From Cellulosimicrobium sp. Marseille-Q4280 (GTDB lineage: Bacteria; Actinomycetota; Actinomycetes; Actinomycetales; Cellulomonadaceae), in the NCBI RefSeq assembly GCF_943181405.1, contig NZ_CALPBY010000001.1, positions 682,001-746,000 on the forward strand: 64,000 bases of DNA. The letters are read 5' to 3'. Position 1 is the stretch's first letter. The number at the start of each line of letters is the position of its first letter. The translations under genes were made by a program, and so were the position numbers. Below the pieces are notes generated by a model. That model had not been told where the DNA came from, did no database searches, and saw only the letters and a list, made by a program, of their open reading frames with translations. Shown one piece after another: positions 1 to 11,350 of this stretch.

Positions 1-661
1 CGAACGACACCCGCTCGGGGTGGGCCACGAGGACGCCGTAGCCCTTGTCGCTGAGGTAGAACGGCACGTTCTTGTACGCGAGGTCGCTCGCCGTCCCGCC
101 GTCCTCGTTCCACACGTCGACGCTCTGCCCGTTCTTGACGAACGCCCCGAACCGCTCCCCGAGCCCGTAGAGGTGCTCCCCCACGCCGAGGGCGAGCTGC
201 TCGTGCACGTGCGAGCGCCCGTCGGACGTCGTCGCGATCCCGATGCTGCGGTCTGTCGACGAGGTGAGCACCGTGCCCTCGGCCTCGAAGTCGACGTGCC
301 ACGGGCCGTCGGTCCGCACGCGCGCGGTGAGCCCGCCCGAGGTGATCGTGGCCTCGGGCGCGCCGATGAGCTCGGGCAGCGCGACCTTGGCGCCGCCCGT
401 CGAGCGGTCGAGACCGAAGTGCGGTCCGCGGTCGCGGCGCCCGCGGTGGTGCTCGATCCGGACGCCGATCACGCCCTCCGCGGGCGCGTCGAAGGTCACG
501 GTGACGACCGGCTGGTTGAGGGTGTCGCCGCGCGTCGCGACGACCGCCGTGGGCGCGTGCACGACGAGGCGCTCGCCCTCGTCGACGACCTCGTCGATCG
601 AGCGCGGGCGCAGCATGCTGACCCCGGGTCGCAGCTGCCAGTACCCGTCGGTGAACTTCAT
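1..661 (-). CDS. GH31 alpha-xylosidase (YicI-like), 3' part cut by window edge
   Basis: This is the N-terminal 220 residues of a glycoside hydrolase family 31 enzyme; the catalytic barrel lies beyond the left edge. The protein opens with MKFTDGYWQLRPG, the signature start of the YicI/XylS alpha-xylosidase branch, and contains YGLGERFGAFVKNGQ near residue 180, the conserved N-domain segment lining the active site in that branch. YicI enzymes release alpha-xylose from the non-reducing end of xyloglucan-type oligosaccharides. The ATG at 661 overlaps the TGA of the GH42 gene by four bases (ATGA), so the two are translationally coupled in one operon. No signal peptide is visible, so the enzyme is probably cytoplasmic. 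Alpha-glucosidase activity is possible until the missing barrel is read. Confidence 0.88.
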   Translation of the reverse strand, partial: MKFTDGYWQLRPGVSMLRPRSIDEVVDEGERLVVHAPTAVVATRGDTLNQPVVTVTFDAPAEGVIGVRIEHHRGRRDRGPHFGLDRSTGGAKVALPELIGAPEATITSGGLTARVRTDGPWHVDFEAEGTVLTSSTDRSIGIATTSDGRSHVHEQLALGVGEHLYGLGERFGAFVKNGQSVDVWNEDGGTASDLAYKNVPFYLSDKGYGVLVAHPERVSF

Positions 662-2715
662 GGCGTCCTTTCGGTGGGATGGTCGACCAGCGCGGCGACG
701 TCGTGCGCGGCGAGGTGCACGGCGTCGTCGACCGGTCGTCCGGTGAGGAGGTCGAGGTGGTGGCCGTCGACGGGCACGGTGACCGGCCCGGCGGTGTGGT
801 TGAGCACGAAGCGCACGTCGCCGCGGCGCACGAGCTCGACACCGGGGGCGTCGCCCGCCCCGGGGAGGACGAGTGCGACGCCGGCGCGGTCGAGCGCGGC
901 ACCGAGGACGTCGCCGAGGAGGTCCTCGTCGGGGACGGTCGCGACGTACCAGGCGTCGCCGGCCCCGTACGCGTGCCGGGTCACGGCGGGACCGCCGGCG
1001 AGATGACCGTCGGCGAAGGTCGCGAGGACCGCGGCGCCCTCGGCCTCCAGGAGCTCGCCCAGCACGCCGGCCCGCGGGGCGGGGCCCGCGGAGAGGTCTG
1101 CCGCGACGTCGAGACCCACGCCGTCGTCCGGGAGCGGGACCCACTCCTCGCCGCTGACGCCGAGGACGTCGCGCAGGAGCGCCGGGAAGCGCCCGGTGCG
1201 CACGTGCGCGTTCTCGTCCGCGACGCCGGTGAACGGCCCGACGACGAGCGTCGTCCCCGCGTGCGTCGCCGTACGCAGCGCGTCCGCCGCGGCCTCGTCG
1301 AGGAGGTAGAGCTGCGGGACGAGCACGGCCCGGTAGCCGGAGACGTCGCGCCCGGCCGGGACGAGGTCGCACGCGACGCCGCGCGCCCACAGCACGCGGT
1401 ACCAGGCGCGCAGCTGCTCGAGCGCGTCGAGGCGGTCCGTGGGGCGGGCGACCTCGCCGCTCGCCCACCACGACGGCCAGTCGACGACGACGGCGACGTC
1501 CGCCGCGACCCGTCCCCCGACGACCGGGGCGAGGCGGGCGAGGTCCGCGCCGAGGCGTCGCACGCCACGGTGCACGCGGGTCTCGGGTCCGGCGTGCGGG
1601 AGCATCGCCGAGTGGAAGCGCTCGGCGCCGCTGCGCGACGCGCGCCACTGGAAGAAGCACACGCCGTCCGCGCCGCGGGCGACCGCCTGGAGCGACTCGA
1701 GCCGCGAGCGCTCGGGGGACTTCGGGAGGTTGTGGGGGCGCCAGCTCACCGCGCTCGTCGCGGACTCCATGAGCAGCCACGGCGCGCCGTCGCCGAGCGA
1801 GCGCATCAGGTCCTGCGTCAGTGCGGCGTCGGCCGGTGCGCGCGGGTCGCCCGGGTCCGGGTACGCGTCGTCCGCGACCACGTCGACGTCCTCGGCCCAC
1901 GTCCACGGGTCGATGCCCGGGAAGAAGCCCATGAAGTTGGTCGTGACCGGACGCTCGGCGTCGTAGGTGCGGATCAGGTCCCGCTGCTCGCGATAGAGGG
2001 CGAGGAGCTGGTCGGAGCAGTACCGGCGCCAGTCCAGCGCCTGCGACGGGTTGACGTGGTAGACCGTGCGGCGCGGGGGCACGATCTCGGACCAGTCGGC
2101 GTAGTGCTGCGACCACACCGTCGTGCCCCACGCCGCGTTCAGCGCCTCGACGGTCCCGTAGCGACGCTCGAGCCAGGCGCGGAACGCGGCGGCCGACTCG
2201 TCGCCGTAGCAGACCTGGCCGAACTCGTTCCCGACGTGCCACATGCGCACCGCGGGGTGCGCGGCGTACCGCGCGACGAGCGCGTCGGTGATCGCGAGCG
2301 CGTGCTCGCGGTACACGCGTGACGCGGGGCTGAACTGGTTGCGCGAGCCCGCCACGAGCCGCACGCCGTCCGGGTCGACCGGCAGCGTGTCGGGGTGCAG
2401 GACGCCGAGCCACGGCGGCGGCGAGGCCGTGGGCGTCGCGAGGTCCACGCCGACACCGTGCTCGCCGAGCACGTCGAGGACCTCGTCGAGCCACGCGAAG
2501 TCACGGGCCCCCGGCGACGGCTCGTAGCGCGCCCAGGAGAAGACGCCCACGGTCACGAGGTTCACGTGCGCCTCGCGCATGAGGCGCGCGTCCTCGCGCC
2601 AGACGTGCGCGGGCCACTGCTCCGGGTTGTAGTCGCCCCCGAAGCGCATCCCGTCCGGCGTGAGGGCCGCGAACCCCCGGCCGTGCGGGGATGCGTCGAT
2701 CGCGTTCGTCGGCAC
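658..2715 (-). CDS. GH42 beta-galactosidase
   Basis: A full-length 685-residue family 42 beta-galactosidase, close to the usual size. FGGDYNPEQWP at residues 25-35 is the family's N-terminal signature. The acid/base Glu is E164 in WHVGNEFG and the nucleophile is E317 in LLMESATSAVSW. The trimerisation and beta-sandwich domains follow. Start is a GTG at 2713-2715 preceded by a good GGAGG site around 2723-2730. No signal peptide is seen, so it acts on imported oligosaccharides. It is the first gene of the GH42-GH31 operon and has a promoter with an overlapping LacI-type operator directly upstream. In this setting it probably removes beta-galactosyl side residues so that the alpha-xylosidase can act. 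Activity on other beta-galactosides or alpha-L-arabinopyranosides is known in the family. Confidence 0.93.
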   Translation of the reverse strand: MPTNAIDASPHGRGFAALTPDGMRFGGDYNPEQWPAHVWREDARLMREAHVNLVTVGVFSWARYEPSPGARDFAWLDEVLDVLGEHGVGVDLATPTASPPPWLGVLHPDTLPVDPDGVRLVAGSRNQFSPASRVYREHALAITDALVARYAAHPAVRMWHVGNEFGQVCYGDESAAAFRAWLERRYGTVEALNAAWGTTVWSQHYADWSEIVPPRRTVYHVNPSQALDWRRYCSDQLLALYREQRDLIRTYDAERPVTTNFMGFFPGIDPWTWAEDVDVVADDAYPDPGDPRAPADAALTQDLMRSLGDGAPWLLMESATSAVSWRPHNLPKSPERSRLESLQAVARGADGVCFFQWRASRSGAERFHSAMLPHAGPETRVHRGVRRLGADLARLAPVVGGRVAADVAVVVDWPSWWASGEVARPTDRLDALEQLRAWYRVLWARGVACDLVPAGRDVSGYRAVLVPQLYLLDEAAADALRTATHAGTTLVVGPFTGVADENAHVRTGRFPALLRDVLGVSGEEWVPLPDDGVGLDVAADLSAGPAPRAGVLGELLEAEGAAVLATFADGHLAGGPAVTRHAYGAGDAWYVATVPDEDLLGDVLGAALDRAGVALVLPGAGDAPGVELVRRGDVRFVLNHTAGPVTVPVDGHHLDLLTGRPVDDAVHLAAHDVAALVDHPTERTP

Positions 2716-2764: not shown

Positions 2765-2810
2765 GTCGAAGCGTTTCAACACGCTAGCCTGTGACCTACG
2801 CCCTTGTCCA
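2765..2810 (-). promoter_or_regulatory. Promoter and LacI-type operator of the GH42-GH31 operon
   Basis: On the minus strand a -35 box TGGACA (2805-2810) and a -10 box TAGCGT (2781-2786) are spaced by 18 bases. The palindrome GTTGAAACGCTTCGAC (2765-2780) abuts the -10 and covers the expected start point. A bound repressor would block initiation. The palindrome resembles the sites at 3019, 8101 and 8247. Confidence 0.75.
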
Positions 2811-3018
2811 GGACGCCGCCGGGCGATCCCCGAGGATCACCCGCAGGCCGCGACGTCGTCGTCCCGACCCACCCTCGGAACAGCGCGATCGTCCCGACGA
2901 GCAGAGGATCTGCCCCATGACCGGCGCCGTCGCCGACCACCTCCCACCGAGCCCGGGCGACGCGCCGTGGGCCCCGGACCGCGAGCTCCTTCAGGCACGC
3001 TCGCACGCCCGGAGGATC

Positions 3019-3028
3019 GAAGCGCTTC
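3019..3028. promoter_or_regulatory. Probable LacI-type operator upstream of the repressor gene
   Basis: GAAGCGCTTC is a perfect 10-base palindrome inside the context TCGAAGCGCTTCCC, matching the core of the operators at 2765 and 8101. It lies about 175 bases before the lacI start, so it suggests autoregulation. The rest of the 486-base divergent gap (2716-3201) is GC-rich without a reading frame I can support. A weak TTCAGG (2990-2995) and GAGGAT (3012-3017) pair could be the repressor promoter. Confidence 0.55.
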
Positions 3029-3201
3029 CCTCGGTCGTCGACGGCCCTGGCGGCCCGGCCACCGGACGGTGCACCGTCCGCGAGCGCCGTCGACCGAGGT
3101 CCGACGCCCCGAGCGCCGCGCCAGGCGCTACCGTGTCCCCCGAGCGATCGCGCGGTCGAGCCGGTCTCGACCGCCGCGATCCCGTCAGCTGAGGAGAAGC
3201 A

Positions 3202-4206
3202 GTGGCCACCATCGAGGACGTCGCACGGACGGCCGGGGTCTCCGCGTCGACCGTCTCCTACGTGCTGTCGGGCAAGCGCAGCATCTCCGCCCCCACGCGC
3301 CGTCGCGTCGAGAAGGCGATCCAGCAGCTCGGGTACCGCCCCCACGCCGGGGCGCGCGCGCTCGCCTCGTCCCGGACCAACGTCCTCGCCCTCATGGCGC
3401 CGCTGCGCGCCGGCGTCGACGTCAACGTCATCATGCAGTTCGTCTCGGGCGTGCTCCTGCGCGCCCGCGAGCACTCCCACGACGTCCTCCTGCTGACCCA
3501 GGACGACGTGTCCGGCGCGGAGCGTGTCGGCTCCGGGTCGATGGTCGACGGGATCGTCGTCATGGACGTCGAGGCGCACGACGAGCGGCTGCCGAGCCTC
3601 GCGCGCCTGCGCCAGCCCGCGGTCCTCATCGGGCTGCCCGCCGACCCCGGGACGCTCAGCTGCGTCGACCTCGACTTCGAGGCCGCCGGACGGCTCGGTC
3701 TCGAGCACCTCGCCCGCCTGGGCCACCGCCGGGTCGCGTTCCTCGGGCCGCCGCCCGAGGTCGTCGCGCGCCACACCTCGTACGCTGACCGCGTGCTGCG
3801 CGGCTTCACGGTCGCCGCGCGCGACGAGGACGTGCACGCGCGCACCGTCGAGACCCCGACGGCCCGCGACGGGGTCGTCGCGTCCGTCGACGCGCTGCTC
3901 GAGCAGGAACCGCACCTGACGGCCCTCCTCGTGCACAACGAGGCCGCGCTGCCCCACGTCCTGGCACGCCTCGCGGAGCGGGGCCGCCGCGTCCCCGACG
4001 ACCTCTCGGTCGTGACGATCAGCCCGGCGGACGTCGCGGCGGCCCAGGTGGTCCCCGTCACGGGCATCGACATCCCCGCGGAGCGCATCGGCCACGTCGC
4101 GGTGGACATGGTCATGGCCCGCATCGAGGACGACGAGCCCGCCGAGACCCGGTTGCTCACGCCGGTCCTCACCGAGCGCGGGTCGACGCGCGCGGCTGCC
4201 CGCTGA
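3202..4206 (+). CDS. LacI-family transcriptional repressor
   Basis: This is a 334-residue LacI/GalR regulator of normal length. Residues 1-24 form the helix-turn-helix (IEDVARTAGVSASTVSYVLSG). A hinge helix follows around RPHAGARALASSR, and residues 60-334 are the periplasmic-binding-protein-like sensor domain. Start is GTG at 3202 with AGGAG at 3192-3196. It sits between the divergent GH42-GH31 operon and the convergent transporter operon. Four palindromes of the LacI half-site type occur only near the genes of this island, so it most likely represses the island and itself. The inducing sugar cannot be read from sequence; a mono- or disaccharide released during xyloglucan breakdown is a reasonable guess. 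Confidence 0.92.
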   Translation: MATIEDVARTAGVSASTVSYVLSGKRSISAPTRRRVEKAIQQLGYRPHAGARALASSRTNVLALMAPLRAGVDVNVIMQFVSGVLLRAREHSHDVLLLTQDDVSGAERVGSGSMVDGIVVMDVEAHDERLPSLARLRQPAVLIGLPADPGTLSCVDLDFEAAGRLGLEHLARLGHRRVAFLGPPPEVVARHTSYADRVLRGFTVAARDEDVHARTVETPTARDGVVASVDALLEQEPHLTALLVHNEAALPHVLARLAERGRRVPDDLSVVTISPADVAAAQVVPVTGIDIPAERIGHVAVDMVMARIEDDEPAETRLLTPVLTERGSTRAAAR

Positions 4207-4210
4207 CGCG

Positions 4211-4244
4211 GCCCCGCACCACGACCGCAGCCCCGCACCACGAC
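4211..4244. repeat. 15-base direct repeat in a convergent gap
   Basis: GCCCCGCACCACGAC occurs at 4211-4225 and again at 4230-4244, just after the lacI stop. The remaining gap to 4315 carries a 12-base palindrome CCGGTCGACCGG at 4281-4292 and other GC-rich dyads that may end transcription from both sides. No coding sequence is apparent. Confidence 0.6.
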
Positions 4245-4315
4245 GAGCGGCCGACCGGCCGGCGCAGGGGCGTGCGCCGTCCGGTCGACCGGCCCGTCGG
4301 GCTGCCGGGCCGTGC

Positions 4316-5311
4316 TCAGCCCTTGATGGCCCCGAAGATCACGCCCTTCGTGAAGTGGCGCTGCACGAACGGGTAGACGAGGAGGATCGGGACCACTGCG
4401 AGCACCATGATCGCCATCTTGACCGGCAGGCCCGTGACCGCACCCGTCGCGACGTCGACCTGGCCCGTGCCGCTGCCCGGGAGCGTGACGCCCTGCAGGA
4501 CGTACGAGCGCAGCACGAGCTGCAGGGGCCACTTCGCGTTGTCGTTGATGTAGAGCATCGCGTTGAAGAAGGCGTTGAAGTAGCCGACGCCGTAGAACAG
4601 CGCGACCACGCTGATCGCCGCCTTCGACATCGGGGCGACGATCTGCCCCATGATCCGCCAGTCCCCTGCCCCGTCGATCCGGGCCGCGTCCGTGATGGAC
4701 GCGTCGATGTTCATGAAGAAGTTGCGCAGGATGAGGACGTTGAACGCCGAGACCGCCCCGGGGAGGATGAGCGCCCACAGGCTGTCGATGAGGCCGAGGT
4801 TGCTCACGAGCAGGTACGTCGGGATCATGCCGGCGCCGAAGAACATCGTGATGAGGAAGACGAACAAGATCGTCCGGTGCCCCAGGCTCGACGGCCGCGA
4901 GAGCCCGTAGGCCGCGAGGACCGAGACCACCGTGGAGAGCACGGTGCCGATCGTCGTGACGACGATGGAGACCATCGCGGCCCGCGTGACGATGCCGCCG
5001 GACAGGATCTGCTGGTAGGCCGCGGTCGTGAAGTCGCCGGGGACGACGACCATCCCGCCCGAGCGGTTGATGTCGGCCTGCGTCGAGAACGACGTGAGGA
5101 CGACCGTGTAGAGGGGGAAGAGGACGACCAGCACGATGAGGAGGAGCGCCAGCCCCTTCCCGGCCTGGCCGAACGGGCTCGGCGTGCCCTCCCACGCCGC
5201 GCGGTGCGGCGAGCGGCGCCGCCGGCGACGAGCCGCCGTCGGCGGAGCCGGGAACGGCACAGCGTCGGGGTGGCTCAGGGGCCCCTGCCCCGTGTCGTTG
5301 GTGATGCTCAT
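4316..5311 (-). CDS. Carbohydrate ABC transporter permease (LplC-type)
   Basis: A 331-residue inner-membrane permease of the MalG/LplC kind. An Arg-rich cytoplasmic N-tail of about 50 residues precedes six predicted membrane spans, starting with LALLLIVLVVLFPLYTVVL. The EAA loop that contacts the ATPase is visible as DAARIDGAGDWRIMGQIVAP around residue 210. The C-terminus (FVQRHFTKGVIFGAIKG) is typical of the LplC/YtcP branch, which handles oligosaccharides. The ATG overlaps the stop of the preceding permease gene by four bases. No ATP-binding subunit is encoded here, so the pair must use a shared MsiK-type ATPase from elsewhere, as is common in actinobacteria. Confidence 0.93.
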   Translation of the reverse strand: MSITNDTGQGPLSHPDAVPFPAPPTAARRRRRRSPHRAAWEGTPSPFGQAGKGLALLLIVLVVLFPLYTVVLTSFSTQADINRSGGMVVVPGDFTTAAYQQILSGGIVTRAAMVSIVVTTIGTVLSTVVSVLAAYGLSRPSSLGHRTILFVFLITMFFGAGMIPTYLLVSNLGLIDSLWALILPGAVSAFNVLILRNFFMNIDASITDAARIDGAGDWRIMGQIVAPMSKAAISVVALFYGVGYFNAFFNAMLYINDNAKWPLQLVLRSYVLQGVTLPGSGTGQVDVATGAVTGLPVKMAIMVLAVVPILLVYPFVQRHFTKGVIFGAIKG

Positions 5312-6357
5312 GATTTCTTGTACACCCCTGCCTCACCGAAGACGTGCGCGAGCTTGTTCGCGCCGAGGACGAGCGCGAGCGAGACGAGACCCTTGACGAG
5401 CCCGGCCGCCGCGGCGAATGCCCAGTCGCCGTTGACGACGCCCTGGTAGTAGACGAAGGTGTCGATGACCTCCGACACCTCGGAACCCACTGCGGCGCGC
5501 TGCAGGATGAGCTGCTCGAACCCGACCGTGAGCGCGTCGCCCAGGCGCAGGATGAGGAGCAGGACGATCGTGGGCCGCAGCGCGGGCAGCGTGATGTGCC
5601 ACGTGCGGCGCATCCGGCCCGCCCCGTCCATCGCCGCCGCCTCGTGGAGCGCCGGGTCGACCGTGCTCAGGGCGGCGAGGAAGATGATGATCCCCCAGCC
5701 CGCGTCCTTCCACACCGACTGCATGGTGATGAGGACGAGGAACGTGTCGGGGTTCGTCATGAGGTCGAACCCGGCGTACCCGTGCTCGGCGAGGACCCGG
5801 TTCACGAGCCCGGCGCCGCCGAAGAGCTGCTGGAAGATCGTCACGACGAGCACCCACGAGAAGAAGTGGGGCAGGTAGACGATCGACTGGATGGTCGTCC
5901 GGATCGCGGGCGTGATGACGCTGTTCAGCAGGAGCGCGAGCGCGATGGGGATCGGGAAGTAGAAGACGAGCTGGAACGCCGTGATGGCGAGCGTGTTGCC
6001 CACCGCCTCGAGGAACAGCGGGTTCGTGAAGACCCGCTCGAAGTTCCACCAGCCGACGAACGGCGAGTCGAGGATGCCGACGTAGGGCGAGTAGTTCTGC
6101 CACGCGATGACGTTCCCGAGCATCGGGACGTAGGCGAACACGACGAGCAGCAGCACGCCCGGCAGCGTCATGAGGAGCAGCGACCGGTCGCGGCGCAACC
6201 GCGCCCGCCACGACAGACGACGCTGCCCGGCCGCGTCCGGTCGTGCCGGCCGCGCCGTGCGGGCCCTCCGGCCCGGCGTGCCCGCCGGGCCGGAGGGGTC
6301 CTTCGTCGCCGCGTCCGCGCTCGGCGCGTCCGTGACGTCGGAGATCTCGGTGCTCAC
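5308..6357 (-). CDS. Carbohydrate ABC transporter permease (LplB-type)
   Basis: This is the partner permease of the MalF/LplB kind, 349 residues from the GTG at 6357. That start lies 7 bases after the binding-protein stop. The open frame extends back to 6432, but this would overlap the binding-protein gene by 68 bases and add unrelated sequence. A long Pro/Arg-rich cytoplasmic tail leads into SLLLMTLPGVLLLVVFAYVP, the first membrane span. The EAA loop reads HEAAAMDGAGRMRRTWHITLP. The LplB/LplC pair forms the translocation channel for the sugar delivered by the lipoprotein encoded just upstream. Confidence 0.92.
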   Translation of the reverse strand: MSTEISDVTDAPSADAATKDPSGPAGTPGRRARTARPARPDAAGQRRLSWRARLRRDRSLLLMTLPGVLLLVVFAYVPMLGNVIAWQNYSPYVGILDSPFVGWWNFERVFTNPLFLEAVGNTLAITAFQLVFYFPIPIALALLLNSVITPAIRTTIQSIVYLPHFFSWVLVVTIFQQLFGGAGLVNRVLAEHGYAGFDLMTNPDTFLVLITMQSVWKDAGWGIIIFLAALSTVDPALHEAAAMDGAGRMRRTWHITLPALRPTIVLLLILRLGDALTVGFEQLILQRAAVGSEVSEVIDTFVYYQGVVNGDWAFAAAAGLVKGLVSLALVLGANKLAHVFGEAGVYKKS

Positions 6358-6364
6358 GACGAGC

Positions 6365-8008
6365 TCACTCGCCGTCGGTCTCTGCCGACCCGCCGTCGAG
6401 GATCTCCTGGTAGTACGCGCGCAGCTCCTCACCGCCCGACGTCCGCCAGGTCTCGACCGCCGCGTCGAGGTCGTCGAGGGACTTGCGCCCGCGGGCGATG
6501 TCCTTCTCCAGGTCCTCGAACGGCTGGCCGAGCGACGCGTACTGCGCCGGCTCGGTGATCTGCAGACCGTAGAAGAGCGGCTCCTCGACGTAGGGCGCGG
6601 CGTCGGCCATCCACGTCGTGAAGTCCTCGACGAAGCCCGGGTACTGGACCTTGGCGTTCACCATGGGCGGGCCGACGAGGAAGATGTACGACGGCTGCAC
6701 CTCGGTCGCGGCGAGCTCGGTGGCGACGGGGAGGCGGTTGTCGTCGAGCGTGTAGTGCACGTCCTCGACGCCGTAGTTGACGAGCTGGTACTCGGCGGTG
6801 CCGAACGGCGAGGCGAGGAAGTCGGCCGCGGAGAGGAGCTCCTCGATCGCGCCCTCGGTGTCGGTCTTCTTGAGGTACGAGCACATGCTCGCGGCGCCGC
6901 CCTTGAAGATCTTCGGCTCGCCGCCGTCGGCCGCGATGAGCGGGAGGGGCTGCTGCGAGAACTCGGGGTTCGACGGCAGGTTGCGGCCGAGCGCCTCGTG
7001 CCACGCCCCGACGCCGTCCGAGGTCACGAGGACCTGGCCGGACTCGAACCGCTCCTTGCCGTCACCGGACTCGGCGACCGCGTCGGGGTGCACGGCGCCG
7101 GACGCGTAGAGCGTCGCGATCCACTCGAGCGCGTCGCGGTACTCCTGCGTCTCGACGCGGTGGACGAGGTTGCCCTCCTCGTCCTGCGTCCACTTCGGCA
7201 CAACGGAGAACATCTGCGTCGCGAGGATCCACAGGTCGTTGCTCCCCCACTGGCGAGCGTCGGCGTCGCTGAGCGACGAGACGAACTCGAGCGCCTCGTC
7301 CGCGTCCGTCGGCAGCTCCGTGCCCTCGGGCAGGAGGTCCGCGCGGTAGAACGTCGCGTCGTTGACCAGCTCGCCGGGGAGCGGCAGGCCGTAGAGCTTG
7401 CCGTTCCACATGCACGCGCGCCACGCGTCCGTCGGGATGTTCGCGAGGTTGGGGTAGGCCTCGACCTTGTCGCCCTCGAGGTACGGCGTGAGGTCGGTGA
7501 AGATCGTGTCGACCGCCTGGCCGAAGCGCGGCGGGACGTTCCACGACGGGATGGTGACCCAGTCCGCGACGTCCTTCGGCGAGGCCAGCACGGCGGCGAG
7601 CTTGTCCCCGTAGGTGTTGCCGTCGGAGATCTGGAACGTGAGGTCGGTGCCGATCGCCTCGTTCACCGCGTCGAAGTACTGGTTGCCCTCGGTCGGGGGG
7701 ATGGTCCCCCACAGCGGCGTCATGACGGTGTACGAGCCACCGGAGCCGGGCGGGGAGTCGAAGACCTGCACGAACTCCTCGGGCACCGTCTCGAAGCCGG
7801 CCGTCGAGCCCTCGACGCTCGGGAAGTCCGGCTCGACGTACTCGACCGGGACGTGGTTCGGGAGCACGGCGTCGTTGCCCACCTGCTGGTCCGGGTCGGC
7901 GACGTTGCCGCCGCCCCCGCCGCTGCACGCCGCCGTGAGTGAGACCGCTCCCACAGCCGCGAGGACGGCGCTCCAGCGCCGGCCGTTTCCGTGCCTGAAT
8001 GCCCTCAT
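6365..8008 (-). CDS. Lipoprotein sugar-binding protein of the ABC transporter (LplA-type)
   Basis: A 547-residue extracellular solute-binding protein. Residues 1-27 are a lipoprotein signal peptide with Arg-rich N-region and the lipobox LTAAC, giving a lipidated Cys28. A Gly-rich linker (SGGGGGN) follows. The length above 500 residues and the context of LplB/LplC permeases match the LplA group, which binds oligosaccharides larger than disaccharides. It is the first gene of a three-gene operon with a promoter and operator at 8101-8147. Ligand is inferred from the neighbouring GH31, GH42 and GH3 enzymes as a branched plant-wall oligosaccharide; the sequence itself does not prove it. Confidence 0.92.
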   Translation of the reverse strand: MRAFRHGNGRRWSAVLAAVGAVSLTAACSGGGGGNVADPDQQVGNDAVLPNHVPVEYVEPDFPSVEGSTAGFETVPEEFVQVFDSPPGSGGSYTVMTPLWGTIPPTEGNQYFDAVNEAIGTDLTFQISDGNTYGDKLAAVLASPKDVADWVTIPSWNVPPRFGQAVDTIFTDLTPYLEGDKVEAYPNLANIPTDAWRACMWNGKLYGLPLPGELVNDATFYRADLLPEGTELPTDADEALEFVSSLSDADARQWGSNDLWILATQMFSVVPKWTQDEEGNLVHRVETQEYRDALEWIATLYASGAVHPDAVAESGDGKERFESGQVLVTSDGVGAWHEALGRNLPSNPEFSQQPLPLIAADGGEPKIFKGGAASMCSYLKKTDTEGAIEELLSAADFLASPFGTAEYQLVNYGVEDVHYTLDDNRLPVATELAATEVQPSYIFLVGPPMVNAKVQYPGFVEDFTTWMADAAPYVEEPLFYGLQITEPAQYASLGQPFEDLEKDIARGRKSLDDLDAAVETWRTSGGEELRAYYQEILDGGSAETDGE

Positions 8009-8100
8009 CGACGTCGCACTCCTTCGTGACCTCGGGAGGGCTGCCGCTCTGCCGCCCTCCGGTGCCCGGGCCCCCGGGCAGCCTCGACATGCTCGGTGAT

Positions 8101-8147
8101 GTCGAAGCGCTTCAACGGAGAGTACGGGCTGCCTCGGCCCAGTGCAA
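8101..8147 (-). promoter_or_regulatory. Promoter and LacI-type operator of the transporter operon
   Basis: On the minus strand TTGCAC (8142-8147) and TACTCT (8119-8124) are spaced by 17 bases. The near-perfect palindrome GTTGAAGCGCTTCGAC (8101-8116) begins two bases after the -10. The architecture is the same as at the GH42 promoter, which supports shared control by the LacI protein encoded at 3202. Confidence 0.75.
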
Positions 8148-8246
8148 GACTCGTCAGGTCACCGTCCGGTCTCGGTACGGCCGCCGCTGTCCGGCCCGAG
8201 ACGTGTGGCACCATGGGCGCGATGCGTCGCACGGTCGCGACGCGGC

Positions 8247-8263
8247 GTCGAACCGTTTCGAAC
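8247..8263. promoter_or_regulatory. Probable LacI-type operator in front of the GH3 gene
   Basis: GTCGAACCGTTTCGAAC is an imperfect palindrome with TTCGAA arms, 39 bases before the GH3 start. It differs from the other three sites in its centre (CCGTTT rather than GCGCTT) but keeps the half-site ends. I could not identify a convincing -35/-10 pair for this gene. Confidence 0.55.
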
Positions 8264-8302: not shown

Positions 8303-11300
8303 GTGCCGCCCGAGGCGATCACCGACGTACCCCCGTACCTGCGCGAGGAGCTGCCCGTCCCGGTCCGGGCGGCAGACCTCCTCGAGCGGCTCACGCCCGA
8401 CGAGCGGCTGGCCCTGCTGCACCAGCACGCCCCGGCCGTCGACCGCCTCGGGCTCGCGCCGTTCCGCACCGGCACCGAGGCGCTGCACGGCGTCTCGTGG
8501 CTCGGCACGGCGACGGTCTTCCCCCAGCCCGTCGGCCTCGCGGCGACGTGGGACCCCGAGCTGCTGCGCCGCGTCGGCGAGGCCGTCGGCACCGAGGTGC
8601 GCGCCAAGCACGCGGCGGACGCGACCGTGAGCCTCAACGTGTGGGCCCCGGTCGTCAACCCCCTGCGGCACCCGCGCTGGGGCCGGAACGAGGAGGGCTT
8701 CTCCGAGGACCCGCACGTGACGGCCTGGCTCGCGAGCGCCTACGGGCGCGGCCTGCGCGGGGACCACCCGCGCGTGTGGCGGACGGTCCCGACGCTCAAG
8801 CACCTCCTCGCGTACTCGAGCGAGACCGACCGCGCCGTCACGAGCTCGCACGTCCCGCTGCGCCTCCTGCACGAGTGGGAGCTCCCGGCGTTCCGCGGCC
8901 CGCTCGCCGACGGGACGGCCGGCGCGGTCATGCCCGGGTACAACCTCACGAACGGCCGGCCCAACCACGTCGCGCGCGGTCTCCTCGACGAGATGCGCTC
9001 GTGGACCGACGGATCGATCGCCGTGGTCTCCGACGCCGCGGCGCCCACGAACCTCGTCGTCGGCGAGCGGTACTTCCCCGACCACGTCGCCTCGCACGCC
9101 GCGTCGCTGCGCGCGGGCGTGGACTCCTTCACGGACAACGACGCCGACCCGCACCTCACGCTCGAGCGCCTGCGGGTCGCGCTCGAGCAGGGGCTGATCT
9201 CGCAGGACGACGTCGACCGGGCGGCGCTGCGGGTCCTCGAGCTGCGCCTGCGCACGGGCGAGCTCGACGTCGCCGACGACCCCTGGTCCGGGGTCGGGCC
9301 GGACGCTCTCGACCTGCCGGCGCACCGGGCGCTCGCGCGCGAGGCCGTCGCGCGCTCGGTCGTCGTGCTGCGCAACGACCCTGCCGGCACCGGGGCGCCC
9401 GTGCTGCCGCTCCCGGCGGCCCCGGCGCGGGTCGCGGTCGTCGGACCGCTCGCGGACCGCGTGCTGCACGACTGGTACTCCGGGACCCCGCCGTACACGA
9501 CGTCGGTGGCCGCGGCCGTCGCCGCGCGCTACCCGGACGCCGAGGTCACGGTCGCCGACGGCTCCGACCGCGTCGCGCTGCGCTCGACCACCACGGGCGC
9601 CTACCTCGAGGTCGGCGACGACCCGGCGGTCGTCACCGCGAGCTCCGCGACCGCCGGCGCGAGCGCCCACCTGGACGTCACCGACTGGGGCGACGGCGTG
9701 CTCACGCTGCGCTCGGTCGCGACCGGTCGCCTGCTCAGCGGGGCCTCGTGGATCGTGTCGGCCGACGCCGACCGCGTGGGCGGCTGGGTCGTCCAGGAGA
9801 GCTTCCGGCGTCACCTGCACGGCGACGGCACGTGGTCCCTGCAGCACGTCGCCTCGGGACGGTGGCTGCGCGTGCAGCACGGCTCGGGCCTGCTCGTCGC
9901 GGAGGCCTCCGGGCCGGACGGGGCCGAGCGCTTCGTCTGGCGCACGGTCCGCGCGGGCCACGAGGCAGTCGCGCAGGCCGCGTGCGACGCGGACGCCGTG
10001 CTCGTCGTCGTGGGCAACGACCCGCATCTCGCGGGCCGCGAGACCGAGGACCGTCCGCACCTCGCCCTGCCGTCGGCGGCCGAGGAGGTGTGGCGCGCGG
10101 CGCGGGACGTCTCCGAGCGCGCCGCCCTCGTCGTCATGTCGAGCTACCCGTACGTCCTCGGTCCGGCGACGCACGACGCCGCCGCGGTCGTCTGGTCGTC
10201 GCACGGCGGCCAGGAGCTCGGCCCCGGGCTCGTCGACGTCCTGTCCGGCGACGCCGAGCCGTCGGGTCGCCTCGCGCAGTCGTGGCCGGCCGCCGAGGAC
10301 CAGGTCGGCCCGCTGCTCGAGTACGACGTCCAGCGTGCGGGGGCGACGTACCGGTACGCGGACCGCGAGCCGGCGTTCGCGTTCGGGCACGGCCTGACGT
10401 ACTCCCGCGTGACGTACGCGTCGGTCGGGCTCGACCGCGGCAGCGTCGACGCCCCGGCCGCCTGGTCGGCGCGCGCCGTGCCGGACGCGGGTCGGGTGGT
10501 GGCGCGCGTCGTCGTGCACAACGGCGGCGACCGCCCCGCGGAGGAGCTGGTCCAGCTCTACGCCCTCGCCCCCGCGGGCCTTCCCGTGCCCGCGCCGCGA
10601 CGCGTGCTCGTCGCGCACGCGCGCGTGCGGCTCGACGTCGGCGAGCGCCGGGAGGTGACGCTCGCCGTCGACCTCGCGCGCCTCGCGGTGTGGGACGTGA
10701 CGGCGACCCCCGCCGACGACCGGCTCGCCGACCTGCTCGCCGGCGCCGACCCCGACCTGCACGTCGGGGCGTTCCGTGTGCAGGGGGCTACCTACGTCCT
10801 CGCCGCGGGCCCGTCGAGCGCCGAGCTCCCCGTCCGCGCGACGCTCCGGGTCGACGGCGTCGACCCGGCTCCCCGTCACGGTCCGGGCCTGCGCCTCCTG
10901 GCCCACGCGTTCAGCGCGTACGACGGGGTCGTGACCGCCGAGAGGACGGCCGAGGCGGGGTGGGCCGTCGACGTGGCGCCGGGACGCCGCGACGGGTGGG
11001 TCGCGTTCGACCGGGTGGACCTCACCGGCGTGGGGACGGTCGTGCTCGACGTCGCCCGGACCGGGCCGGGTGCGGCACGCCCCGTGCAGGTCGAGGTGCG
11101 GGCGTCGGGGACGGACGACGCGTGGGTCGCGCTCGCGGTCGTCGAGCCCGGACAGGTCGCCGGGAACGACGGCGACACCCCGGTGCGCCACCGGTGGCAC
11201 GAGGTCGCGGGCGGTGTCGACGGCCCACCCGCGCGACAGGCCGACGGCCCGGCCCACGGCCGGGCCGAGGCCCACGACGTGCGCGTGGTCGTGCCCGCAG

Positions 11301-11350
11301 GCGTACGGCTCGGGGCGGTCCGCTTCGCGGGGACCGCGTCGGACGGCTGA
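8303..11350 (+). CDS. GH3 beta-glucosidase with inserted beta-trefoil-like domain and C-terminal carbohydrate-binding-like domain
   Basis: A 1015-residue family 3 glycosidase. The barrel domain has K166-H167 and the nucleophile D244 in VVSDAAAPTN. The second GH3 domain starts near residue 345 (SVVVLRNDP) and resumes near 550 (DAVLVVVGNDP). Between them, residues 423-548 form an inserted domain with three repeats of the type LRSTTTGAYLEV, LRSVATGRLLSG and LQHVASGRWLRV, as in fascin-like or beta-trefoil folds. A fibronectin-like domain follows the GHGLTYS motif, and residues 880-1015 resemble a CBM6-type beta-sandwich. No signal peptide is seen. Start is GTG at 8303 with AGGAAGGA at 8288-8295; the nearby ATG at 8298 is out of frame. 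It probably cleaves the glucan backbone after side chains are removed. Confidence 0.88.
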   Translation: MPPEAITDVPPYLREELPVPVRAADLLERLTPDERLALLHQHAPAVDRLGLAPFRTGTEALHGVSWLGTATVFPQPVGLAATWDPELLRRVGEAVGTEVRAKHAADATVSLNVWAPVVNPLRHPRWGRNEEGFSEDPHVTAWLASAYGRGLRGDHPRVWRTVPTLKHLLAYSSETDRAVTSSHVPLRLLHEWELPAFRGPLADGTAGAVMPGYNLTNGRPNHVARGLLDEMRSWTDGSIAVVSDAAAPTNLVVGERYFPDHVASHAASLRAGVDSFTDNDADPHLTLERLRVALEQGLISQDDVDRAALRVLELRLRTGELDVADDPWSGVGPDALDLPAHRALAREAVARSVVVLRNDPAGTGAPVLPLPAAPARVAVVGPLADRVLHDWYSGTPPYTTSVAAAVAARYPDAEVTVADGSDRVALRSTTTGAYLEVGDDPAVVTASSATAGASAHLDVTDWGDGVLTLRSVATGRLLSGASWIVSADADRVGGWVVQESFRRHLHGDGTWSLQHVASGRWLRVQHGSGLLVAEASGPDGAERFVWRTVRAGHEAVAQAACDADAVLVVVGNDPHLAGRETEDRPHLALPSAAEEVWRAARDVSERAALVVMSSYPYVLGPATHDAAAVVWSSHGGQELGPGLVDVLSGDAEPSGRLAQSWPAAEDQVGPLLEYDVQRAGATYRYADREPAFAFGHGLTYSRVTYASVGLDRGSVDAPAAWSARAVPDAGRVVARVVVHNGGDRPAEELVQLYALAPAGLPVPAPRRVLVAHARVRLDVGERREVTLAVDLARLAVWDVTATPADDRLADLLAGADPDLHVGAFRVQGATYVLAAGPSSAELPVRATLRVDGVDPAPRHGPGLRLLAHAFSAYDGVVTAERTAEAGWAVDVAPGRRDGWVAFDRVDLTGVGTVVLDVARTGPGAARPVQVEVRASGTDDAWVALAVVEPGQVAGNDGDTPVRHRWHEVAGGVDGPPARQADGPAHGRAEAHDVRVVVPAGVRLGAVRFAGTASDG

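Follow-up and report, generated by a model that had tools for sequence, protein, structure and literature searches.

How far does the reach of a LacI-type repressor extend beyond the small sugar island in which it is encoded, and which sugar does it sense? The question is raised by a 64,000-nucleotide stretch of Cellulosimicrobium sp. Marseille-Q4280 (contig NZ_CALPBY010000001.1, positions 682,001 to 746,000; hereafter the window), in which four palindromes, S1 to S4, lie before the four transcription units of the island: GH42-GH31, lacI, an ATP-binding cassette (ABC) operon of a solute-binding protein (SBP) gene and two permease genes, and GH3. On the basis of the sites, their recurrence, codon bias and gene content, all read from the sequence, we propose, with a probability of about three in four, that the protein encoded at 3202 would be a LacI/GalR repressor of xyloglucan use, that it would act at S1, S3 and S4 and at remote GH74 and GH5-CBM46 genes, and that S2 would derive from a GH95 gene.

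Sites of the island and their conservation

The sites, promoters and regulator gene are as follows (L and G numbers, here and below, are our handles for loci and genomes).

2765..2780, no strand: S1, candidate operator before GH42-GH31, GTCGAAGCGTTTCAAC
2781..2810, minus strand: promoter TGGACA-18-TAGCGT before S1, a -35/-10 pair read from the sequence
3019..3028, no strand: S2, candidate operator core, GAAGCGCTTC in the context ATCGAAGCGCTTCCC; within GH95 coding sequence in relatives
3202..4206, plus strand: lacI-type regulator gene, 334 amino acids, domain match
8101..8116, no strand: S3, candidate operator before the ABC operon, GTCGAAGCGCTTCAAC
8119..8147, minus strand: promoter TTGCAC-17-TACTCT before S3, a -35/-10 pair read from the sequence
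8247..8262, no strand: S4, candidate variant operator before GH3 (GAACCG half-site), GTCGAACCGTTTCGAA

A direct check of the window found all four palindromes where the original prediction had placed them, and the two -35/-10 pairs that it had described directly ahead of sites are present with the spacers it gave. S1 to S4 share the core GAANCGNTTC, mostly with TC just ahead of it, and with their central CG and their position near promoters they look like LacI/GalR operators. When the 16-mer GWTGAARCGCTTCGAC was searched with at most three mismatches, the window gave 8 matches against 1.84 expected, a number reached in none of 100 shuffles; five of these are S1, S3 and S4 (both strands counted), the remaining three lie elsewhere in the window, and S2 is not among them because its fit is limited to the core and the left arm. 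S2 lies 173 bp upstream of the lacI start.

Judged by its domains, the protein at 3202-4206 is a LacI/GalR-family regulator, with an N-terminal LacI helix-turn-helix (PF00356, 66.5 bits) and a C-terminal periplasmic-binding-protein-like domain (PF13377, 109 bits), both above cut-off. Of the 396 genomes of the order, 63 (our own among them) have an orthologue at E <= 1e-80, and named relatives that are 51-69% identical to the protein belong to Isoptericola, Serinibacter, Pseudactinotalea, Actinotalea and a Tessaracoccus metagenome-assembled genome. We compared 41 neighbourhoods, namely the window and the 40 best-scoring of 65 LacI matches outside the own genome. At least one site was found in all 28 gaps between the SBP and GH3 genes (two sites in 26) and in all 25 gaps upstream of GH42, the window being counted in both, so that the idea of a single LacI-type regulator whose sites mark the promoters of the island gains support from conservation beside orthologues. 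These gaps (18,687 bases) hold 83 sites against none for the reversed pattern; the remaining 738,525 bases of the neighbourhoods hold 50 against 5, including the GH95 sites discussed below and the pre-lacI sites of loci that have no GH42. Of the 41 neighbourhoods scanned, one (L276) has no site near lacI.

Of 28 loci, 26 have a TANNNT hexamer at most 16 bases ahead of the S3 core; for S1 the figure is 17 of 25. Because a -10-like hexamer thus precedes the core, S1 and S3 are mostly positioned to block initiation if the repressor were bound. At S4 the hexamer is found in 3 of 26 loci, and this site is therefore placed differently from S1 and S3.

Sites elsewhere in the genome

In the 4.86-Mb genome the pattern TCGAAGCGNTTC occurs at six distinct places. 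S1, S2 and S3 are three of them, and the others lie one each before a CE7 esterase gene, a GH5 gene (with CBM_X2 and CBM46) and a gene for a GH74-type enzyme with CBM2. With this pattern the sites are not common outside sugar genes; had they been, the original prediction would have been refuted. The looser TCGAANCGNTTC has 12 distinct places genome-wide, four of them within these 5.5 kb, and GAAGCGCTTC at its other places in the own genome falls within a roughly sketched reading frame in seven of eight cases (eight of nine examined, contig 9 left out).

Of the six TCGAAGCGNTTC places, three are remote, and two of these precede genes for predicted xyloglucan or beta-glucan hydrolases. The predicted regulon is therefore not local, and the original prediction of a self-contained, local-only switch had to be abandoned. 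In its full form that explanation holds that the island responds to a galactoside or similar sugar through four purpose-made operators, S2 serving lacI autoregulation. The position of S2 before lacI agrees with it, as does a second pre-lacI site in four loci without GH95 (L264, L265, L275, L286). It is nevertheless improbable, given the remote sites before GH74 and GH5, the steadier association of the repressor with GH31 (37 of 41 neighbourhoods) and the Pro-codon flank of a GH95 motif that S2 bears.

The PDB matches of the GH74 protein are solved xyloglucanases, and those of the GH5 protein are GH5 endoglucanases, 4v2x among them. Of 16 other genomes, three have a GH74 match at E <= 1e-60, all of them Isoptericola with this repressor and each with an upstream site; with two further GH74 genes that carry a site, in G267 (inside the island) and G310, the site precedes GH74 in all six genes examined (own, G017, G018, G019, G267 and G310). 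In G310 two sites also lie upstream of a GH5 gene, the product of which has a xyloglucanase as its best PDB match, and in Tessaracoccus a site lies about 180 bp ahead of the matched part of a GH5-CBM46 gene.

A second palindrome, GAAACGTTTC or AAACGTTT, is located at most about 40 bp from the repressor site before GH74 (own L155:5178-5187 on contig 11; L178, L179). Contig 11 also encodes, some 5 kb away from GH74, a LacI paralogue whose helix reads VVSYALNDRPG. By this arrangement a second LacI-type regulator may act on GH74.

It could then be asked whether a different LacI paralogue, similar in specificity, is responsible for the remote GH74, GH5 and CE7 sites. The genome has 22 LacI-domain matches, the paralogue just described is close to a GH74 site that GAAACGTTTC adjoins, and a TTGAAGCGCTTCAA site precedes the paralogue L029. 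Yet GVSASTVSYVLSGKRS is repeated in none of the 18 readable helices (of 22; the other four were not read), and GH74 at the above threshold occurs, outside the own genome, together with the repressor each time, and in none of five genus mates without the orthologue. We consider this explanation unlikely, and retain the repressor at 3202 as the candidate regulator of the remote GH74 and GH5 genes.

Two further observations concern other LacI-type systems of this genome. The TTGAAGCGCTTCAA site (L173:1501; own C5:48332) lies between L029 and a gene whose start looks like that of a secreted or binding protein, and cross-talk is possible because the arms of this site are similar to the right-hand arms of S1 and S3. 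Two copies of TCGAATCGATTC, 35 bp apart (L156:6884/6919; own C8:205881/205916), are found some 200 bp away from a LacI-domain match at C8:205563-205694 and, from their arrangement, are probably another local LacI operator pair.

S2 and the GH95 gene

Twelve of the 41 neighbourhoods (L261, L262, L263, L266, L267, L271, L272, L273, L277, L282, L285 and L288) have a GH95 gene that separates GH42 from lacI and points towards lacI, and 11 of these 12 genes contain the palindrome, 182-227 bp from S1, in the codons for E-[A/S]-[L/F]-P of the EALPxGNG motif. Over all GH95 genes collected, the palindrome is present in 12 of 16 that lie directly upstream of a lacI orthologue against 1 of 36 others (Fisher 1e-7, kinship uncorrected), the lone case being the GH95 gene of G267, which lies in the island on the far side. 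The 52 distinct motifs come from 53 listed matches, G312:C35, G302:C39 and G293 not being included, G348 and G247 being added from the lacI neighbourhoods and duplicates being counted once. Adjacency was set manually from coordinates: G300 was taken as upstream although its GH95 and lacI genes are on separate contigs (in its genus mate G258 they stand together), and G383, G375 and G157, with GH95 tail to tail with lacI, as not upstream.

Is the palindrome a mere consequence of the protein motif, kept for EALP and not for a regulator? The motif is conserved across GH95 generally, and the counts are not independent, related genes sharing ancestry. The same motif is, however, encoded by the 36 genes not upstream of lacI, with the palindrome once. 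In ten high-GC GH95 genes that carry the palindrome, GAA makes up 10% of Glu codons and CTT 1% of Leu codons, and the motif Glu and Leu columns end in A or T in all ten genes, the only two of 719 gap-free columns to do so (mean 7%). The palindrome is also kept where Leu is replaced by Phe (TTT, one gene) or Ala by Ser (TCG, five genes), and the genes bearing it belong to five genera and two families. From the rare A/T-ending codons and the palindrome-preserving Phe and Ser variants we therefore read selection on the DNA, and we regard conservation of coding sequence only as a rather unlikely explanation, if slightly less so than the two weighed above. An intragenic LacI-type operator under nucleotide-level constraint is thus the preferred reading for the relatives; in the own genome the gene is absent.

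Two other candidates were rejected. A rare-codon ramp close to the gene start does not account for GAA and CTT, as both codons occur together at the motif only in L317 among the 36 genes not upstream. Looping between S1 and S2 with fixed phasing finds no support in the spacings, which are 182, 197, 198, 216, 227 and 251 bp, and 78-90 bp in L264, L265, L270, L275 and L286, and have no constant phase.

At E <= 1e-120 no GH95 match was found in the own genome. One frame around S2 could be what is left of the gene:

2947..3054, plus strand: possible relic of the GH95 N-terminus, with S2 inside, weak protein alignment

Compared with nine GH95 proteins, this frame aligns with the N-terminus (E 3.7e-4), and its last residues are IEALP; the alignment is weak by itself because unrelated frames reach E 0.002 by chance. 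The position and the IEALP frame around S2 agree with the relatives. The position and the operator with its Pro-codon flank were rated stronger than the alignment: 16 bases, GGATCGAAGCGCTTCC, are identical in L262, and G310 (L270) is in the same state, without GH95 and with two sites and VEALP ahead of lacI; the second sites of L264, L265, L275 and L286 have no Pro-codon flank. Judging from these sequences, S2 probably did not arise as an operator made for lacI and is most likely derived from an operator inside a GH95 gene. Its present function is uncertain: a second operator before lacI is common in loci without GH95, and S2 may well serve lacI today. As to the fuller history, we lean towards an operator that was written in the EALPxGNG codons of the GH95 gene it controlled, being preserved by rare codons and even through Leu-to-Phe and Ala-to-Ser changes, and that outlived this gene here and in G310, where it now serves as a regulatory site ahead of the repressor gene.

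The GH3 site as a candidate variant operator

The observation that the GH3 site differs in its centre extends to the relatives. GAAGCG makes up 3 of the 52 half-sites here; for the GH42 site the count is 34 of 50, and for the ABC operon site 34 of 52. GAACCG accounts for 25 of the 52 half-sites of S4 (S1 and S3 together against S4, Fisher 4e-14, the species not being independent). As far as sequence comparison can tell, the GH3 site is a conserved variant operator class, present in most relatives.

LacI homologues of 44-45% identity in four genomes have GAACCGGTTC, the half-site seen at S4, directly upstream (L149:8979 in G001, L150:8981 in G010, L151:10014 in G003 and L152:8966 in G004). With the present LacI they form a natural pair for studying how one operator base is read.

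Genes of the island and the sugar sensed

The genes accompanying lacI are listed here.

1..661, minus strand: GH31 alpha-xylosidase, YicI type, 767 amino acids, start at 661, truncated by the window edge
658..2715, minus strand: GH42 beta-galactosidase, domain match
4316..5311, minus strand: ABC permease, domain match below cut-off
5308..6360, minus strand: ABC permease, domain match
6365..8008, minus strand: ABC solute-binding protein, domain match
8303..11350, plus strand: GH3 glycosidase, domain match

The start of the GH31 gene and the end of the GH42 gene overlap, and the GH31 protein scores 1222 bits with the NCBIfam alpha-xylosidase model (cut-off 606). A GH31 match of more than 300 residues accompanies the repressor even in neighbourhoods without GH42, GH3 or ABC matches. 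Among the features of a xyloglucan locus we thus find the GH31 alpha-xylosidase, a beta-galactosidase (GH42, whose action on xyloglucan oligosaccharides is predicted) and an endo-xyloglucanase (GH74), for which the site suggests shared control; the alpha-fucosidase GH95 is lacking in the own genome. The GH31, GH42, GH3 and ABC set, the GH74 and GH5 genes with the same candidate operator and the GH95 genes of relatives make xyloglucan the best inference, and by gene content the sugar sensed via the repressor is most likely xyloglucan. The GH3 protein also has a weak internal match to a ricin-type lectin (residues 506-554, 27.5 bits, whole-protein E 5e-6).

Proposed mechanism

For binding, repression and inducer we infer the following scheme. 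When no inducer is present, the repressor would occupy TCGAAGCG/CGCTTCGA palindromes in the start regions of GH42-GH31 (S1), the ABC operon (S3) and GH3 (S4), and would also sit on the remote GH74 and GH5-CBM46 genes; it would be released most likely by a xyloglucan oligosaccharide or by an alpha-xyloside made from one. In relatives, the operator in the GH95 EALPxGNG codons, downstream of the GH95-lacI promoter, could hold back the fucosidase and the repressor together. In the present genome GH95 would have been lost, leaving between GH42 and lacI an S2 that seems descended from the intragenic operator and through which lacI may be autoregulated.

Several observations weigh against this scheme or parts of it. 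Most of the 16 genus mates without a close orthologue have a pair of TCGAAGCGCTTC sites, separated by 26 bp, immediately ahead of a LacI homologue of 35-38% identity (for example G002:C9:76069/76095, G004:C1:3753272/3753298 and G013:C1:1939203/1939229), so that the operator belongs to a wider LacI group and not to this protein alone; a scan of the own genome found no such pair, and homologues of 40-43% identity (L083-L085) have GAAGCGCTTC upstream. A site precedes none of 20 CE7 genes in 16 other genomes, so that CE7 is not supported as a conserved regulon member, and the own CE7 site may be due to chance or a recent gain. No clear xyloglucan gene accompanies the sites in L322, L323, L339, L329, L342, L326, L332 and L333; the neighbour in L339, the only one of the eight run against Pfam, is a tetrahydrodipicolinate succinyltransferase. 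Four GH95 genes directly upstream of lacI are without the palindrome (L242, L234, L235 and L246), the adjacent LacI being 68% identical in L242 and 48-50% in the other three. As for specificity, the best PDB matches of the GH3 protein are beta-xylosidases, isoprimeverose-producing enzymes being among the lower ones, and no PDB match was found for the SBP.

Comparison with known systems

The operator inside lacZ, lac O2, is a familiar case of an operator within a controlled gene. Like it, the GH95 palindrome would put a LacI-type operator within the first gene under control, besides the one at the promoter; unlike it, the GH95 palindrome lies in codons of a motif conserved throughout the family, has been retained in several genera and persists without the gene.

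The CelR/CebR operator is TGGGAGCGCTCCCA. CelR sites are accordingly TGGGAGCGCTCCCA-like, whereas those of the island are TCGAAGCGCTTCGA-like. In other respects, as far as the published description available to us goes, the actinobacterial CelR regulons are similar, combining a LacI-family protein, an ABC operon, a beta-glucosidase, secreted hydrolases and a common CG-centred palindrome (PMC3377646). The CNAA(T/A)CGNTTC-like sites given there for Cellulomonas flavigena resemble the present core, but have A/T where the island core has G (PMC3377646).

Xyloglucan use in Ruminiclostridium cellulolyticum is reportedly regulated by XygS/XygR, a two-component system with an AraC-like regulator, unlike the LacI-type protein and palindromic operators found here. 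The gene content is alike: in the accessible account of that organism the cytoplasmic set for xyloglucan oligosaccharides comprises GH31, GH42 and GH3 enzymes with an ABC transporter, and extracellular xyloglucanases include GH74 (PMC4780118). The Xanthomonas xyloglucan utilization locus (XyGUL) likewise combines GH74, GH31, GH95, a beta-galactosidase and an esterase, but with TonB-dependent transport, GH35 and CE20, and LacI control does not appear in the available portion of its description (PMC8245568).

In the open-licence literature we found no LacI-family xyloglucan regulon in actinobacteria, no title on a LacI regulon among the listed matches containing GAAGCGCTTC, and nothing that combined an intragenic operator, the LacI family and coding sequence. 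The present analysis would provide such a LacI-family xyloglucan regulon, with a defined operator and a short list of targets. The GH95 case would allow the effect of a DNA operator on the codons of a protein motif, and perhaps on its residues, to be tested directly, and bears on whether an operator can persist after the gene around it has been lost.

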